Positions 280 through 58,599 of a stretch of 64,000 bases of DNA are shown here, piece by piece. The notes beneath the pieces are model-generated. The model made no database searches and was not told where the DNA came from. It saw nothing but the letters and a program-made list of their open reading frames with translations. Each line of letters begins with the position of its first letter. The first letter of the stretch is position 1. Origin of the DNA: Modestobacter sp. VKM Ac-2986 (GTDB lineage Bacteria; Actinomycetota; Actinomycetes; Mycobacteriales; Geodermatophilaceae); assembly GCF_026967795.1 (NCBI RefSeq), contig NZ_JAPVBH010000002.1, positions 372,001-436,000 of the forward strand. The letters run 5' to 3'. The position numbers and the translations under genes were made by a program.

Positions 280-924
280 ATGAGCGAGCTGGCGGTGGTG
301 CGGGCGGGGCTGGTCCCCTACGAGCAGGCGTGGGCGCAGCAGCGCGAGGTGCACGAGCGACGGGTCGCCGGCACGGGCCCGGACACCCTCCTGCTGCTGG
401 AGCACCCGCCGGTCTACACCGCCGGGAAGCGCACCCTGCCGCACGAGCGGCCCTTCGACGGCACCCCGGTCGTCGACGTCGACCGCGGCGGCAAGATCAC
501 CTGGCACGGCCCGGGCCAGCTCGTCGGCTACCCCATCGTGCAGCTGGCCGACCCGGTCGACGTCGTCGCGCACGTCCGCCGGCTGGAGCTCGCCCTGATG
601 GAGGTCTGCGCCGGCTTTGGTCTGGCCACGTCGCAGGTCGAGGGCCGCAGTGGCGTCTGGGTGCTGGCCGACGAGCGCGGGCCGGACCGCAAGGTGGCCG
701 CGATCGGCGTCCGGGTGGCCCGCGGGGTGACCATGCACGGCTTCGCCCTCAACTGCGACCCCGACATGACCGCCTTCGGCAACATGGTCCCGTGCGGCAT
801 CCCCGACGCCGGGGCGACCTCGCTGACCGCCGAGCTCGGCCGGGACGTCACCGTCGCCGAGGCCATCGAGCCGGTCGAGGCCACGATGCGCCGCGTGCTC
901 ACCGGCACCGCCGTCCCCGCCTGA
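280..924 (+). CDS. lipB: Lipoyl(octanoyl) transferase LipB
   Basis: Moves octanoate from acyl carrier protein to lipoyl-domain lysines (pyruvate dehydrogenase and related complexes, glycine cleavage H protein); LipA then adds sulfur. The 214 residues match the family length. Visible motifs are [17 protein letters not shown] (about residues 69-85), the catalytic lysine region KVAAIGVRV (Lys138), HGFALNC and the catalytic-cysteine motif PCGI (Cys172). The ATG at 280 follows a -10 box at 266 with no leader. In many actinobacteria lipA is the next gene; here it lies 10 kb away, beyond leuS and a polyol-type operon. The gene converges with leuS over a structured repeat. Confidence 0.96.
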
Positions 925-1023
925 CGTCGGGTGCCGGCGCCGGGCAGGTGCCCGCGCCGGGCAGCCCCCTGCCGCGGGCGGTGTCCCGGCCGGACCAGCG
1001 TCCCCGCCTGATCTGGTCTGCGG

Positions 1024-1105
1024 CGTCCTCCCTCACCGACGTCTGTCCTCCCTCAGCAGCACTGGTGAGGGAGGACAGACGTGGATCAGGTCACCTGATC
1101 CACGT
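1024..1105. repeat. 82-bp two-hairpin repeat element, copy 1
   Basis: Lies in the convergent lipB/leuS gap. It contains a hairpin at 1039-1082 (17-bp perfect stem, 10-nt loop) overlapping a perfect odd palindrome at 1079-1105 (13-bp arms around one base). The reverse complement aligns without gaps over all 82 positions to 57290-57371 with 66 identities, counted by eye. Several differences are paired and compensating. It resembles REP- or MITE-type intergenic repeats and may also end transcription from both sides. Confidence 0.8.
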
Positions 1106-1147: not shown

Positions 1148-4021
1148 TCAGCCGACGACGAAGTTGACCAGGCGGCCGGGGACGGCGATGACGCGGCGCA
1201 CCGTCTTGCCCTCGAGCTGGGCGACGACCTTCTCGTCGGCGCGGGCCGCCGCCTCGAGGGTCGCGGCATCGGCGTCGGCCGGGACGGCCACCTGTGCCCG
1301 GACCTTGCCGTTGACCTGCACGGCGACCTCGACGGTGTCGTCGACCAGCCAGCGGTCCTCGGCGACCGGGAACTGCGCCCAGGCCACCGAGCCGGCGTGG
1401 CCCAGCCGCGACCACAGCTCCTCGGCCAGGTGCGGGGCCAGCGGTGCGACCAGCAGCACCAGGGACTCGGCGACCGAGCGGGGCACCGCCGTCCCGGGCG
1501 GGAACGCCTGGGTCAGGTGGTTGGTCAGCTCGGTGATCCGGGCGATGGCGATGTTGAACCGCAGCGTGGTCATGCCGTCGCGCACGGCCTCGATGGCCCG
1601 GTGCAGCGCGCGGGAGGTGTCGTCGTCGGGCTCGACGTCCCCGGCGCGGACCTCTCCGGTCTCCTCGTCGACCACGACCCGCCAGATGCGGGCCAGCAGC
1701 CGGGCGGAGCCGACGACGGCCTTGGTCTCCCAGGGCCGGGACTGGTCCAGCGGCCCGGTCGACATCTCGTAGACCCGGAAGGTGTCCGCGCCGTACATCG
1801 CGATCATCTCGTCGGGCGTGACGACGTTCTTGAGGCTCTTGCCCATCTTCCCGTACTCGCGGTGGACCGGCTGCCCCTCGTAGAGGAACTGGCCGTCGCG
1901 CTCGACCACGTCGGCGGCGGGCACGGGGAAGCCGCGGGAGTCGGTGTAGGCGTAGGCGGAGATGTAGCCCTGGTTGACCAGCCGGCGGAAGGGCTCCTCG
2001 CTGGACACGTGCCCCAGGTCGAACAGCACCTTGTGCCAGAACCGGGCGTACAGCAGGTGCAGGACGGCGTGCTCGACACCGCCGACGTACAGGTCCACGC
2101 CGCCCACGTCGCCGGGCTCGCGCGGGCCCATCCAGTACCGCTCGAGCTCGGGGTCGACGAACTGCTGGTCGTTCGTCGGGTCGGTGTAGCGCAGGTAGTA
2201 CCAGCACGACCCGGCCCAGTTGGGCATCGTGTTGGTCTCCCGGCGGTACTCCTGCGGCCCCTCGCCCAGGTCCAGGGTGACCGTCGTCCACTCCGTGGCG
2301 CGCGACAGCGGCGGCTCGGGCTGGGAGTCGGCGTCGTCGTCGGCGAAGGTCTTGGGCGAGTAGTCGTCGACCTCGGGCAGCAGCACCGGCAGCATCGAGT
2401 CCGGGACGGCGACCGGCAGGTCGTCGGCGTCGTAGACGATCGGGAACGGCTCGCCCCAGTACCGCTGCCGGCTGAACAGCCAGTCGCGCAGCTTGTAGGT
2501 GGTCGTCGCCTCACCGCAGCCGTTCGCCACCAGCCACTCGGTGACCGTGGCGATGGCCGTGGCCTTGTCCAGCCCGTCCAGCGACAGCTGCTCGTTGGAG
2601 CTGTTGATCATCGGCCCGGTGCCGGTGTAGGCACCACCGTCGAAGTCCGCCGGGGGCTGCACGGTGCGCACGACCGGCAGGCCGAGGACCTGGGCGAACT
2701 CCCAGTCGCGGGTGTCCTCACCGGGCACGGCCATGATCGCGCCGGTGCCGTAGCCGGTGAGCACGTAGTCGGCGATGAACACCGGCAGCTGGCGCTGCGT
2801 CAGCGGGTTGGTCGCGGTGACGCCCAGCCAGACGCCGGTCTTGTCGCGGCCCTCGGTCTGCCGCTCCAGCTCCGAGCGCCGGGAGGCCTGCAACTGGTAG
2901 GCCTCGACCGCCTCGGCGGGGGTGGCGGCACCGGCGGTCCAGCGCGGGTCGGCGCCGTCCGGCCACACGTCCGCGGTCAGCGCCTCGACGAGCGGGTGCT
3001 CGGGCGCCAGCACCAGGTAGGTGGCACCGAACAGGGTGTCGGGCCGGGTGGTGAAGACCTCGACGGTCTCGCCGGACACGGGGAACCGGACCCGTGCGCC
3101 GGTGGAGCGGCCGATCCAGTTGCGCTGCATCTGCTTCAGCGAGTCCGACCAGTCCAGCCGGTCCAGGTCGTCGATCAGCCGCTCGGCGTAGGCGGTGATC
3201 CGCATCATCCACTGGGTCAGCGGACGCCGGAAGACCGGGAAGTTGCCGCGCTCGGATCGCCCGTCGGCGGTGACCTCCTCGTTGGACAGCACGGTGCCCA
3301 GGCCGGGGCACCAGTTGACCGGCGCGGAGTGGCGGTAGGCCAGCCGGTGGGCGTCCACCACCCGGCGACGCTCGACCGGGGACAGCTCGGCCCAGCTCTG
3401 CCCCTCGGGCAGCGTGCCCGGCGCGGGCTGGCGGGTGCCGGCGTCCAGCTCGGTCACCAGCTCGGTGATCGGGCGGGCCCGGTCGGTCTCGGGGTCGAAC
3501 CACGCCTCGAAGACCTGCCGGAAGATCCACTGGGTCCACTTGTAGTAGCCCGGGTCGATCGTGGCGAAGGTGCGGCGGGTGTCGTGGTCGACGCCCAGCC
3601 GGCGCAGCTGCGCGCTGATCGCGGCGATGTTGGCCTCGGTGGTGACCCGCGGGTGCTGCCCGGTCTGCACCGCGAACTGCTCGGCCGGCAGGCCGAAGGC
3701 GTCGTAGCCCATCGGGTGCAGCACGTTGCGCCCGTCCATCCGCAGGAACCGGCTGGTGACGTCGGTGCCCAGGTAGCCCAGCGGGTGCCCGACGTGCAGG
3801 CCGGCCCCGGAGGGGTACGGGAACATGTCCATCACGAACGCCTTGGGCCGGTCGGCCACGCGGTCGAAGCCCTCGCTGAGCGGACCGACCGGGTTGGGCG
3901 TGTGGAAGGTGCCCTCGGCCTCCCAGCGGTCCTGCCAGGCCAGCTCGATCTGCTGGGCCAGCGCCGGGGTGTAGCGGTGCGGGGGCACCCCGTCGGCAGT
4001 GGGCTCGGTGGTCTGGCTCAT
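1148..4021 (-). CDS. leuS: Leucyl-tRNA synthetase
   Basis: Class I aminoacyl-tRNA synthetase that charges tRNA-Leu. From the ATG at 4021 it has 957 residues, normal for bacterial LeuRS. The HIGH signature appears as LHVGHP (about residues 75-80) and the second signature as KMGKSLKN (about residue 725; the KMGKS variant is seen in other LeuRS). Between them is a long CP1 editing insertion, and an anticodon-binding domain follows. The start at 4021 was chosen because an AGGAG-type site precedes it. The reading frame stays open to a GTG at 4093 (with an ATG at 4051), but that upstream part overlaps leader hairpins and does not look like protein. The 3' end converges with lipB across the 82-bp repeat. 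Confidence 0.96.
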
Positions 4022-12974: not shown

Positions 12975-13042
12975 GTGCGTTCCCGGCCTCGTCCGGAGGC
13001 TCAGCGCGAGCCTGCGAGTGCTGAGTGGGACGAGGTCCTTCG

Positions 13043-29087: not shown

Positions 29088-29144
29088 GGCCCCCTCGCCG
29101 GGATCCGCGGCGCGCGGAGCGCGTCGTGGGGGGCGAGGGGGTCC
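29088..29144. repeat. Terminator-like repeat family, copy A (behind glnA2)
   Basis: Stem 29088-29099 with 29132-29144 (one bulged T) enclosing a GC-rich inner hairpin. It begins 5 bases after the glnA2 stop. It shares the GGCC...GGTCC ends and a GTGGGG inner segment with copies at 34625, 41995 and 58541, while the stem body varies by paired changes. Confidence 0.7.
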
Positions 29145-29148
29145 TCCG

Positions 29149-34624: not shown

Positions 34625-34680
34625 GGCCCCGTTGCAGGGGCCCGCTGCGAGCGGGCGAGCAGTGGGGGGCAACGGGGTCC
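34625..34680. repeat. Terminator-like repeat family, copy B (panB/npdG)
   Basis: Perfect outer arms GGCCCCGTTGC (34625-34635) and GCAACGGGGTCC (34669-34680, one extra T), with the inner AGGGGCCCGC...GTGGGG segment. It starts 2 bases after the npdG stop, in a convergent gap. Confidence 0.75.
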
Positions 34681-34682
34681 TT

Positions 34683-41994: not shown

Positions 41995-42050
41995 GGCCCC
42001 CTCGCAGGGCCCCGCCGCGAGCTTGCTCGTGGCGGGAGGCGAGGGGGTCC
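41995..42050. repeat. Terminator-like repeat family, copy C (behind DUF2795)
   Basis: Outer arms 41995-42005 and 42039-42050 (CTCGC/GCGAG body) with the conserved GGCC and GGTCC ends. It starts 2 bases after the stop of the DUF2795 gene. Confidence 0.75.
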
Positions 42051-42052
42051 TT

Positions 42053-54971: not shown

Positions 54972-54997
54972 GTCGCCCTCCCGGGTGGGAGGGCGAC
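54972..54997. terminator. Bidirectional terminator of the HTH gene and rnpB
   Basis: Perfect 11-bp stem (54972-54982 with 54987-54997) and GGGT loop, just past the HTH stop and at the 3' side of the minus-strand RNase P RNA. Confidence 0.8.
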
Positions 54998-54998
54998 G

Positions 54999-55403
54999 GA
55001 CGAGTCGGCCTGTACGCCGGGTTCTGTCCCCGGGCGCCTCGCGGCGTCCCGATGGGCGGCCATCCATCTACGCCTGCCGTTGCCGACAGGCTCCAGCGGT
55101 CTACCCGCAGGCTCGGGCGGGCAGCCCTCGAACGCCTGCGCAGGACGGCGGCGGACCGCCGTCCCTCTCGACCTTGCTCCGGGTGGGGTTTACCGAGCCA
55201 CACCGGTCACCCGGTGTGCGGTGGTCTCTTACACCGCCGTTTCACCCTTACCAGTGCGAGCACTGGCGGTCTGTTCTCTGTGGCACTGTCCCGCGGGTCA
55301 CCCCGGGTCGCTGTTAACGACCACCCTGCCCTGTGGAGCCCGGACGTTCCTCGGTGCCGGGGTCTCCCCCGCCAACGCGACCGCCCAGCCGACTCGTCCG
55401 TCG
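54999..55403 (-). ncRNA. rnpB: RNase P RNA (bacterial class A)
   Basis: Catalytic RNA that trims tRNA 5' ends. On the minus strand it has GAGGAACGTCCGGGCTCC near the 5' end, ACAGAGAACAGACCGCC and GGTAAGGGTGAAACGG in the middle, AAACCCCACCCGGAGCAAGG further on, and the 3' AGATGGATGGCCGCC and ACAGAACCCGG segments. It ends with GACTCGTCCG pairing to the 5' end GACGAGTCGGC. All conserved regions of bacterial class A are present; length about 400 nt. Ends are approximate. It sits between the HTH gene and the PIG-L gene. Confidence 0.96.
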
Positions 55404-56239: not shown

Positions 56240-56285
56240 GATCCTCCACCCGGGTCCCGCATGGTGGAGGATCACGTCCGTGATC
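56240..56285. promoter_or_regulatory. Inverted repeats between the PIG-L and AsnC genes
   Basis: A perfect 11-base inverted repeat GATCCTCCACC (56240-56250) with GGTGGAGGATC (56263-56273), 12 bases between. It partly overlaps a perfect 16-base palindrome GATCACG-TC-CGTGATC (56270-56285). The latter covers the AsnC start codon. Both look like dimer operators for the adjacent regulator. Confidence 0.6.
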
Positions 56286-57278
56286 GACAGCATCGACCGG
56301 CAGATCGTGCACGCGATGCAGGTCGACGGCCGCGCCCCGTTCAGCCGGGTGGCCACCGTGCTCGGGGTGTCGGAGCAGACGGTGGCCCGGCGCTGGCGCC
56401 GGCTGCGTGCCGACGGCGTCGTCCGGGTCCTGGGGCTGGCCACCCCGGACGCCACCGAGCCCAGCTGGCACATCCGGGTGCGGGTCCAGCCCGCCGCTGC
56501 CGGCGCGGTGGCCGAGGCGCTGGCCCGCCGTCCCGACGTGTCGTGGGTCAGCCTGACCTCCGGCGGTGCGGAGATCACCTGCTCCACCCGGCCGCGCACC
56601 CCGCGGCAGCGGGACGCCCTGCTGCTGGACCGGCTCCCCCGCACCGTGCAGGTCATCGACCTCAACGCCTTCTCGGTGCTGCACGCCTACGTGGGCGGCG
56701 ACTACGAGTGGACCGCCTTCGAGGACCCGCTGACCGACGAGCAGGTCGCCGCCCTCGACCAGGGCCCGGCCCGGACGGCGACCACCCCGCTGGCCCTGGA
56801 CCCCGAGGACGAGGTGCTGTTCGCGGCGCTGGCCACCGACGGGCGGCTGAGCTACGCCGAGCTGGCCGGGGTCACCGGCTGGTCGGAGAGCCGGGTGGCC
56901 CGCCGGGTGGAGGCGCTCCGCGCGGCCGGCGCGCTGTACTTCGACCTGGAGATCGCCAACGAGCTGCTGGGCCACCCGGTCAGCGCGAACCTCTGGCTGG
57001 GGCTGGCACCGGCCGACATCGCCCACGTCGGGGAGTCCCTGGCCCGGGAGCCGGAGACCGCGTTCGCCGCGGTGGTCACCGGGCCGGCGAACCTGATGGT
57101 GTCGGTGACCTGCCGGGACACCGCCCACCTCTACCGGTTCCTCACCGAGCGGGTGGGGGCGCTGCCGGTGCGCACGCTGGAGACCTCGACGGTGCTGCGC
57201 CGGGTGAAGCAGGCCGGCAGCCTGATGGACGGTCCGCGGCTGACCGACCCCGAACCCCCGCCGGTGCGGGGGCGCTGA
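56280..57278 (+). CDS. Double-headed Lrp/AsnC family regulator
   Basis: 332 residues, twice the usual AsnC length. The first winged helix-turn-helix (IDRQIVHAMQVDGRAPFSRV, VSEQTVARRWRRLRADGVVR) and a ligand-like alpha/beta region cover residues 1-145. A second HTH (DEVLFAALATDGRLSYAELA, WSESRVARRVEALRAAGAL) and alpha/beta region cover 180-310. Such two-domain AsnC regulators are known in actinobacteria. GTG at 56280, inside a palindromic operator candidate; autoregulation likely. The effector is unknown, probably an amino acid. Probable target: the divergent PIG-L gene. Confidence 0.88.
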   Translation: MIDSIDRQIVHAMQVDGRAPFSRVATVLGVSEQTVARRWRRLRADGVVRVLGLATPDATEPSWHIRVRVQPAAAGAVAEALARRPDVSWVSLTSGGAEITCSTRPRTPRQRDALLLDRLPRTVQVIDLNAFSVLHAYVGGDYEWTAFEDPLTDEQVAALDQGPARTATTPLALDPEDEVLFAALATDGRLSYAELAGVTGWSESRVARRVEALRAAGALYFDLEIANELLGHPVSANLWLGLAPADIAHVGESLAREPETAFAAVVTGPANLMVSVTCRDTAHLYRFLTERVGALPVRTLETSTVLRRVKQAGSLMDGPRLTDPEPPPVRGR

Positions 57279-57289
57279 CACCCGCCCAG

Positions 57290-57371
57290 ACGGTGATCAG
57301 GTGACCTGATCACCGTCTGTCCCCCCTCAGCAGCGTTGGGGAGGGGGGACGGACGGTGGTGAGGTCGGACG
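57290..57371. repeat. 82-bp two-hairpin repeat element, copy 2
   Basis: Sits between the convergent AsnC and DoxX genes. A perfect odd palindrome (57287-57319, 16-bp arms) overlaps a hairpin (57313-57328 with 57341-57356, one G-T pair). It aligns without gaps to the reverse complement of 1024-1105 (66 of 82 identical by eye). Differences in the arms are compensated on the opposite arm, so both folds are conserved. Confidence 0.8.
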
Positions 57372-57378
57372 GCCCCGC

Positions 57379-57738
57379 TCAGCCTCCGCGGGCGACCCGC
57401 AGCGCCGCAGCGATCATCGGGACCTGGAACGGGATGCGGGCGACCGCCACGGCCAGCTTCCCCGGCCGGTGGCGGAACGCGCGCACCGTCTGGGCGTGCG
57501 CGGGCAGGACGCCGACCAGCAGCGCGACCGCGGCCCAGCCCCCCGCGCGCCGGGTCGCCGGCAGCGCCAGCAGCCCCGCCGTCCCGAGCTCGGCCACGCC
57601 GCTTCCGAGGACCCACGGCCGGGCCGGGCCCAGCTCCGGGGGGATCATCCAGTCGTAGGTCTGCGGCCGCACCAGGTGGAACATCCCGGTCGCGGTCAGC
57701 GCCGCGGCCATGGTCAGCGCACGCACGTCGTCCCTCAT
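57379..57738 (-). CDS. DoxX-like small membrane protein
   Basis: 119 residues with four hydrophobic helices. The motif HLVRPQTYDWMIPPELG and the following GSGVAELGTAGLLALP are typical of DoxX-like membrane proteins, whose role (often linked to redox or terpenoid metabolism) is not established. Start ATG at 57738, 8 bases behind a -10 box on the minus strand (leaderless). The promoter overlaps that of the TauE gene on the other strand. Confidence 0.75.
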   Translation of the reverse strand: MRDDVRALTMAAALTATGMFHLVRPQTYDWMIPPELGPARPWVLGSGVAELGTAGLLALPATRRAGGWAAVALLVGVLPAHAQTVRAFRHRPGKLAVAVARIPFQVPMIAAALRVARGG

Positions 57739-58520: not shown

Positions 58521-58540
58521 GCACGGTCCCCGGCCCATCG

Positions 58541-58596
58541 GCCTCGCTGCAGGGGCCCGCGCTGGGCCTGGGGAGCGTGGGGGGCAGCGAGGTCCT
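58541..58596. repeat. Terminator-like repeat family, copy D (TauE/nadA)
   Basis: Arms GGCCTCGCTGC (58541-58551) and GCAGCGAGGTCC (58585-58596, one extra T) with the AGGGGCCCGC...GTGGGG core. It lies just behind the nadA stop (58600) and 20 bases after the TauE stop. Confidence 0.75.
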
Positions 58597-58599
58597 TCC

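Follow-up and report, generated by a model that had tools for sequence, protein, structure and literature searches.

A composite palindromic repeat dispersed at gene ends across the Geodermatophilaceae is a candidate transcript-end cassette

A repeated palindrome in one Modestobacter window

What kind of element lies between the converging lipB and leuS genes of a Modestobacter genome and returns, in the reverse orientation, beside the gene of an AsnC-type regulator in the same 64,000-nt stretch of DNA (the window)? The initial annotation had counted 66 identities over 82 positions in an ungapped alignment of the reverse complement of 1024-1105 with 57290-57371, and our recount gave exactly this figure; elsewhere in the 64-kb window, ungapped matches to copy 2 rose no higher than 43/82 on either strand. 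The compensating differences listed there are all present: TG in copy 1 is replaced by GT in copy 2 at clamp positions 4-5 of the first hairpin (P), with CA replaced by AC on the opposite arm, and at position 34, in the second hairpin (H), T is replaced by C, with A replaced by G opposite. The element had been described as an 82-bp unit with two hairpins. The hairpins stand, while the unit itself extends over 85 nt (67/85 identical between the minus-strand copy 1 and the plus-strand copy 2) and includes a third arm (R) that had been overlooked, as had the different behaviour of core and clamp in P, the extent of the repeat across the family and the substitution of hairpins of other types at orthologous gaps; we refer to the whole as the P-H-R cassette (Table 1). 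The neighbouring genes lipB, leuS and the AsnC-type gene were confirmed by Pfam, and the label DoxX was not, since the small gene concerned has only a sub-threshold MauE match. Throughout, G000 denotes the source Modestobacter genome, other G numbers comparison genomes, L numbers fetched loci and C numbers contigs.

Both copies fold far better than dinucleotide-shuffled sequences on both strands (z from -5.2 to -7.8, with 0 of 200 shuffles equal in each of the four folds). The minimum-energy RNA fold of copy 2 has one longer stem that draws in, besides H, the right arm of P and R's left part; P and H therefore need not fold as two distinct hairpins.

Table 1 Position of the cassette copies, their neighbours and other features in the window
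Feature	Position	Strand	Basis
Copy 1, P-H-R cassette, convergent lipB/leuS gap	1021..1105	-	CM 98.7 bits, G000:C8:373021-373105
Copy 1 P hairpin, core GATCAGG-TGA-CCTGATC, clamp ACGTG/CACGT	1079..1105	-	fold, sequence
Copy 1 H hairpin	1043..1078	-	fold, sequence
Copy 1 R arm, half copy of H right arm	1021..1042	-	sequence
Copy 2, P-H-R cassette, AsnC-type regulator gene/'DoxX' gap	57290..57374	+	CM 92.4 bits, G000:C8:429290-429374
Copy 2 P hairpin, core GATCAGG-TGA-CCTGATC, clamp ACGGT/ACCGT	57290..57316	+	sequence
Copy 2 H hairpin	57317..57352	+	fold
Copy 2 R arm	57353..57374	+	sequence
lipB (lipoyl transferase)	280-924	+	Pfam
leuS (leucyl-tRNA synthetase)	1148-4021	-	Pfam
Lrp/AsnC-type regulator gene	56280-57278	+	Pfam
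Small gene, earlier labelled 'DoxX'	57379-57738	-	sub-threshold MauE match only (Pfam)
Second hairpin family	12985-13040
Second hairpin family	29088-29146
Second hairpin family	34625-34682
Second hairpin family	41995-42052
Second hairpin family	58540-58597
Bacterial RNase P class A RNA gene, within long convergent gap	54997-55396	-	Rfam

Occurrence within and beyond the family

The next question is whether the two copies are a peculiarity of one window. With a covariance model (CM) built from 36 aligned copies and overlapping matches merged by eye, 16 sites were found in G000, 19 in G017 and 6 in G008; two weak sites, G000:C1:259440 (L126) and G008:C1:857519 (L150), fell short of E 1e-5 and were dropped. 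A BLAST search of G000 returned full and partial matches to the element, and the P core occurs with up to two mismatches at 19 places in this genome, one of which (C1:466510) is by inspection not part of an element.

Matches at E <= 0.01 are present in 96 of 112 Geodermatophilaceae genomes and 11 of 12 genera, in a scan with stricter filters in which the best ~40 candidates at most were scored per genome. Two of these genera, g6 and g7, have one marginal match each (E 0.004 and 0.008), so nine genera are firm. The best 85-nt matches reach E ~1e-19. The exact P core pattern was found in 82/112 family genomes, at up to 60 places per genome, and the reversed core used as a control pattern gave 0 in the genomes listed. 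Of 298 genomes sampled from the order, at least 51 belong to the family, and 47 of these matched at E <= 0.001; at the same threshold, the at most 247 others yielded five with one weak match each, the best at 3.7e-6. Thus the further copies on which the initial annotation had staked its proposal exist both in the genome and in its relatives, and its suggestion of a repeat family particular to this lineage agrees with the near confinement to the Geodermatophilaceae.

No published description of the P-H-R repeat was found in a literature search that covered mostly papers available without subscription; a BOX-PCR study of Geodermatophilaceae is on record (PMC2625358). At the Rfam gathering score there was no match at the element, RNase P being the only passing entry in the window, and permissive Rfam scans of the two gaps gave only matches below the cut-off, chiefly to hairpins of microRNA type; the best of them (E 1.6e-5) scored 31.9 bits where 76 would be required.

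One could suppose that intergenic DNA of high GC content folds readily in any case, so that composition explains the hairpins and coincidence the two copies. Further gaps in G000 do fold strongly, and several lipB gaps without the element fold no better than shuffled sequence, as such a view would have it. We regard it as practically negligible given the margin of the 66/82 identity over the next best place, the E values of the CM matches and the covariation controls described below, and it is refuted by the copies in 96 genomes.

Pairing is kept among copies of the cassette

P spans 27 nt. Its 5-bp clamp encloses the core GATCAGG and the pairing partner CCTGATC, which are separated by a loop of three bases. 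H (36 nt) has 16 pairs and 4 loop bases, and R (~20 nt) is a half copy of the right arm of H that frequently ends GGACGGCG. Folded alone, H has a median energy of -30.4 kcal/mol and P of -19.1 kcal/mol.

Pairs were counted in 67 P-H-R copies from seven genera, taken from 81 sites after exclusion of the P-H-P type, of matches other than 85 nt long and of L124. The two parts of P behave very differently: the seven core pairs contain 2 double changes in 469 cells, and in the five clamp pairs 124 of 335 cells are double changes and 59 are unpaired. The P loop is TGA in 46 copies, TCA in 10, TTC in 6 and otherwise in 5. For the cassette as a whole, 37 copies from other genera aligned with MAFFT pair in 95.3% of cells, with double changes in 16 of 28 pairs, and none of 500 shuffles and none of six slid controls approach this result. 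Their alignment has no row in common with that of the model, yet every copy was found using the model; three of 40 copies (L166, L167 and L190) were removed, having counterparts among the rows from which the model was built. The first 36 copies pair in 90.4% of cells and likewise lie beyond 500 shuffles and six slid controls. Shuffle tests on both alignments are inflated by relatedness among the copies. The left arm of H covaries with R too, more weakly (88.5% of cells, 21 double-change cells). The cassette stems are maintained by compensating changes, and the excess of paired changes over chance by which the initial annotation proposed to judge the fold is found in two row-disjoint alignments.

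Such a core might also be read in double-stranded form, P being an operator-like palindrome to which a dimeric protein binds in order to block converging polymerases or to organise the chromosome, with the hairpins secondary. The inverted repeat GATCAGG-N3-CCTGATC, near-invariant in all 67 copies and seven genera around a variable 3-base centre, has the appearance of such a site. Duplex binding would have no need of clamp changes that mostly keep their pairs, nor of the covariation of H and R, and the copies in the single-contig genome G024 are scattered by eye. We consider a duplex site quite improbable. Clustering in one region of the chromosome was likewise discarded on the spread of the G024 positions.

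Several variants of the arrangement were met: P-H-P, with two P spaced 63 nt apart; P-H-P-H-P; and, at an orthologous gap in G017 (L148), H without P or R. At L226 (G009:C1:424700-429900, ~2620-2740), six tandem R copies of roughly 20 nt each stand behind P-H. A cassette subtype in L125 (G000), L194 (G012), L065 (G033) and L182 (G103) has the H arms CCTGGCTCA / TGAGCCAGG; its R follows these changes in L065 and L182 and almost follows them in L125 and L194, and in G012 this subtype fills the AsnC/'DoxX' gap.

Position relative to genes

Genes were called by a codon-usage script tried on the window, and 81 sites were placed in 78 of 80 fetched loci; the sites of G000, G008 and G017 are those above threshold, and those of the other genomes the best-scoring ones from the 112-genome list. 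Of these sites, 47 lie between convergent genes, 31 between tandem genes, 3 between divergent genes and none inside genes, as against 8 convergent, 60 tandem and 45 divergent among the 113 other gaps in these loci that measure 85 nt or more. Fisher's test gives p = 4e-15 (convergent) and 9e-10 (divergent), values that are optimistic because orthologous sites recur across genomes. The bias holds in the genus and in the other genera taken separately; G000 alone has 9 convergent, 7 tandem and 0 divergent sites against 2, 5 and 5 other gaps (p = 0.054 convergent, 0.008 divergent).

The element begins close to the stop codon. The median distance is 12 nt at tandem sites and, at convergent sites, 11 nt on the P side and 10 nt on the R side; of the 78 convergent and tandem sites, 76 have a stop codon no more than 80 nt away. 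The initial annotation had proposed mapping copies relative to gene ends, and it is indeed there that they are concentrated. Tandem P-H-R copies are moreover oriented, with P towards the upstream stop in 22 of 26 (p = 5e-4) and four reversed. Unlike this norm, a lone P-type palindrome at ~1501 of L066 (G031:C314) stands shortly upstream of an apparent gene start.

A putative role at transcript ends

Judged from sequence and position, this Geodermatophilaceae-wide composite palindromic repeat probably serves as a ready-made transcript-end cassette, either a terminator or a 3' barrier. RNA polymerase would transcribe P and H, the hairpins would form, and they would stop transcription or shield the RNA end from 3' exonucleases; between convergent genes, a single cassette could serve both strands. 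The invariant P core may in addition be recognised by a factor specific for its sequence, whether in RNA, in single-stranded DNA or in the duplex, as is suggested by a clamp that varies provided it pairs and a core that does not.

Does the cassette look like a canonical terminator? A run of at least three T within 12 nt after H is present in 3 of 67 copies. On the P-to-R strand, at least three scattered U occur in the 8 nt after H in 33 of 67 copies and fewer than three in 34; on the other strand, at least three U in the 8 nt after P occur in 0 of 67, all 67 having fewer. The enrichment of U just after H fits the preferred direction of tandem copies, and the P-to-R direction would accordingly be the stronger one; bidirectional action is less supported because of the 0/67 on the other strand. 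The best reading would be a REP/BIME-like 3'-end cassette that has no strong U-tract.

Because the cassette offers many natural variants as well as orthologous sites with and without it, it makes directly testable how transcripts end in high-GC actinobacteria without strong U-tracts. Precedents are available for the main features. In Streptomyces clavuligerus, another high-GC actinobacterium, a strong stem with few U was found at 353 of 1,427 mapped RNA ends (PMC8269248), possibly I-shaped terminators or Rho-dependent transcript ends; by analogy, both are possibilities for the P-H-R cassette too. In 13 genomes, hairpins and hairpin clusters near stop codons matched RNA-seq ends without a need for poly-U (PMC8355165), and Bacillus cereus terminators offer a precedent for compensating changes (PMC5381666).

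A more specific version would make the cassette a factor-dependent 3'-end signal, in which a lineage-specific protein reads the folded P core and competition of R with the right arm of H for its left arm switches between termination and read-through. We think this unlikely. If true, a single actinobacterial family would have a dedicated system of its own for termination or RNA ends, spread as a reusable module able to take the place of other terminators.

Gain and loss of copies at orthologous gaps

Another question is what occupies the same gap in related genomes. In the lipB-leuS gap, the element is present at 7 of 19 loci of the genus, at four of which an additional gene precedes it, and 9 of the 12 relatives without it have another hairpin (classed by eye). 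Six of these (G002, G004, G006, G007, G008 and G017) have a recurrent GC-rich hairpin of the form GGCC-stem...stem-GGTCC, and G003, G014 and G018 have a different one; the remaining gaps, in G011, G013 and G015, are short and by eye have no clear hairpin. Relative to shuffles, gaps with the element fold strongly (z -2.8 to -8.1), those of G003, G014 and G018 have z of -2.5 to -4.2, and the six of the recurrent type fold scarcely better than shuffled sequence (z -0.2 to -1.4).

In the AsnC/'DoxX' gap, the element is present at 6 of 20 loci, in a comparison in which the script did not call the gene at four loci. The two genes abut or overlap without the element in G001, G005, G007 and G014, which indicates that it is dispensable in these four genomes. 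In G008 the two genes are 2 nt apart, in G006 the gap contains a different type of hairpin, and in G004, G017 and G020 the neighbour differs.

Turnover can be seen between close relatives. G013 has a P-H-P unit that G005 lacks, between flanks that are ~97% identical. At a P-H-P site shared by G000 and G012, in a locus of ~94% identity, about five H pairs have changed on both sides (by eye), which would point to conversion or replacement by another copy. For one G012 site, no clean empty site was found in G000, where the place is taken by another segment, ~1.5 kb long, containing a gene that we take, by resemblance, to be GH16-like. Copies are gained or lost, and one copy seems able to overwrite another, with no obvious transposase dedicated to the process.

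Two opposite cassettes bracket an accessory gene at G000:C8:452338-453597 (L006/L111), between outer genes that are presumably aceE-like and amidohydrolase-like. A transposase between the paired copies was excluded here, the product of the bracketed gene having an AbiEi-antitoxin domain. Bracketing by opposite cassettes recurs in L213 (G012), L127 (G008), L138 (G017) and L228 (G009); in L127, the script splits the inner gene into two pieces.

Is the cassette, then, a REP- or MITE-like selfish palindrome spread by a trans-acting enzyme, with a gene-end bias produced by purging or by targeting of terminator hairpins? This would account for the dispersed homologous copies, such as the 16 in G000, for presence and absence despite the near-identical flanks of G013 and G005, and for the bracketed gene in G000 and the homologous loci of four other genomes; REPs are placed likewise (PMC3733652). 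The Y1 family, the only one searched, gives it no enzyme: RAYT/Y1 transposases (PF01797) were found in 0 of 112 family genomes, with matches in 5 of 14 controls, and an earlier RAYT search of 34 genomes gave two matches, both in other families, and none in 20 genomes of the genus. A RAYT-linked GTAG REP is excluded on these grounds, no family genome encoding Y1_Tnp. On visual inspection, the two ends of P-H-R do not form an inverted repeat; P-H-P forms are symmetric. No target duplication was recognised by eye in the orthologous comparisons. Nor would a purely selfish element predict the kept pairing in orthologous copies or the substitute hairpins. A selfish origin of the pattern appears unlikely. 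As for the mobile element that the initial annotation had offered as one option, RAYT searches lend it no support, and the quick change in presence between close relatives is in its favour. The cassette extends REP/BIME-like biology to a lineage without a detected REP-type (Y1) transposase, so its copies must be spread or homogenised by other means.

Relation to known repeats and terminators

The BIME of enterobacteria is a mosaic REP element whose palindromic modules are arranged in tandem and inverted at gene ends and bind gyrase, IHF or Pol I. Our cassette is likewise a mosaic of distinct palindromic modules at gene ends, the likeness being one of arrangement. In Neisseria and Pasteurellaceae, DNA uptake sequences occur in inverted pairs that double as terminators; compared with these, P-H-R has far fewer copies.

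REPs are described in PMC3733652 as short dispersed palindromes with units of 20-40 bp and stems of 5-13 bp (8-9 bp in CGTC REPs), mostly in convergent or tandem gaps, with conv-REPs within ~20 bp of 3' ends; they form dimers and composites, and CGTC REPs have no dedicated transposase. P-H-R resembles the GTAG and CGTC super-families in its palindromes, dispersal, gene-end placement and composites, and differs from them in that the cassette is longer (85 nt) and composite, with stems of 12 and 16 bp and R as a third arm. In the broad sense of REP/BIME elements, the cassette copies are dispersed extragenic palindromes in convergent and tandem gaps near 3' ends. Unlike GTAG and CGTC REPs, the cassette has no constant unpaired GTAG or CGTC tag: no GTAG tag was found in the aligned copies by inspection, and CGTC strings are present in the paired arms at the P/H junction and, on the other strand, in R at positions that differ between genera. 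The word 'Actinobacteria' does not occur in the accessible text of PMC3733652, in which untagged REP-like repeats of M. tuberculosis are mentioned.

The HS-U-lack and I-shaped terminators of S. clavuligerus resemble the cassette in being stable GC-rich stems at gene ends, often with few U, and bidirectional cases are known there (PMC8269248). Those classes are made up of individual sites, whereas P-H-R is one homologous cassette with an invariant core that is reused genome- and family-wide. The cassette behaves like a REP/BIME, perhaps like a U-poor terminator, and stands outside the tagged REP super-families.

Further hairpins at gene ends in the window

Of the 12 other convergent gaps in the window, seven have a strong hairpin (classed with no shuffle control), and in one a hairpin accompanies the RNase P gene; the remaining four measure less than 25 nt. 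There is also a second dispersed family of gene-end hairpins, with the form GGCC-stem ... matching stem-GGTCCT, in which the stems vary among copies and the pairing is kept. Its five copies in the window (Table 1) comprise four in convergent gaps and one in a tandem gap, and the same type is found in the lipB-leuS gaps of relatives without P-H-R.
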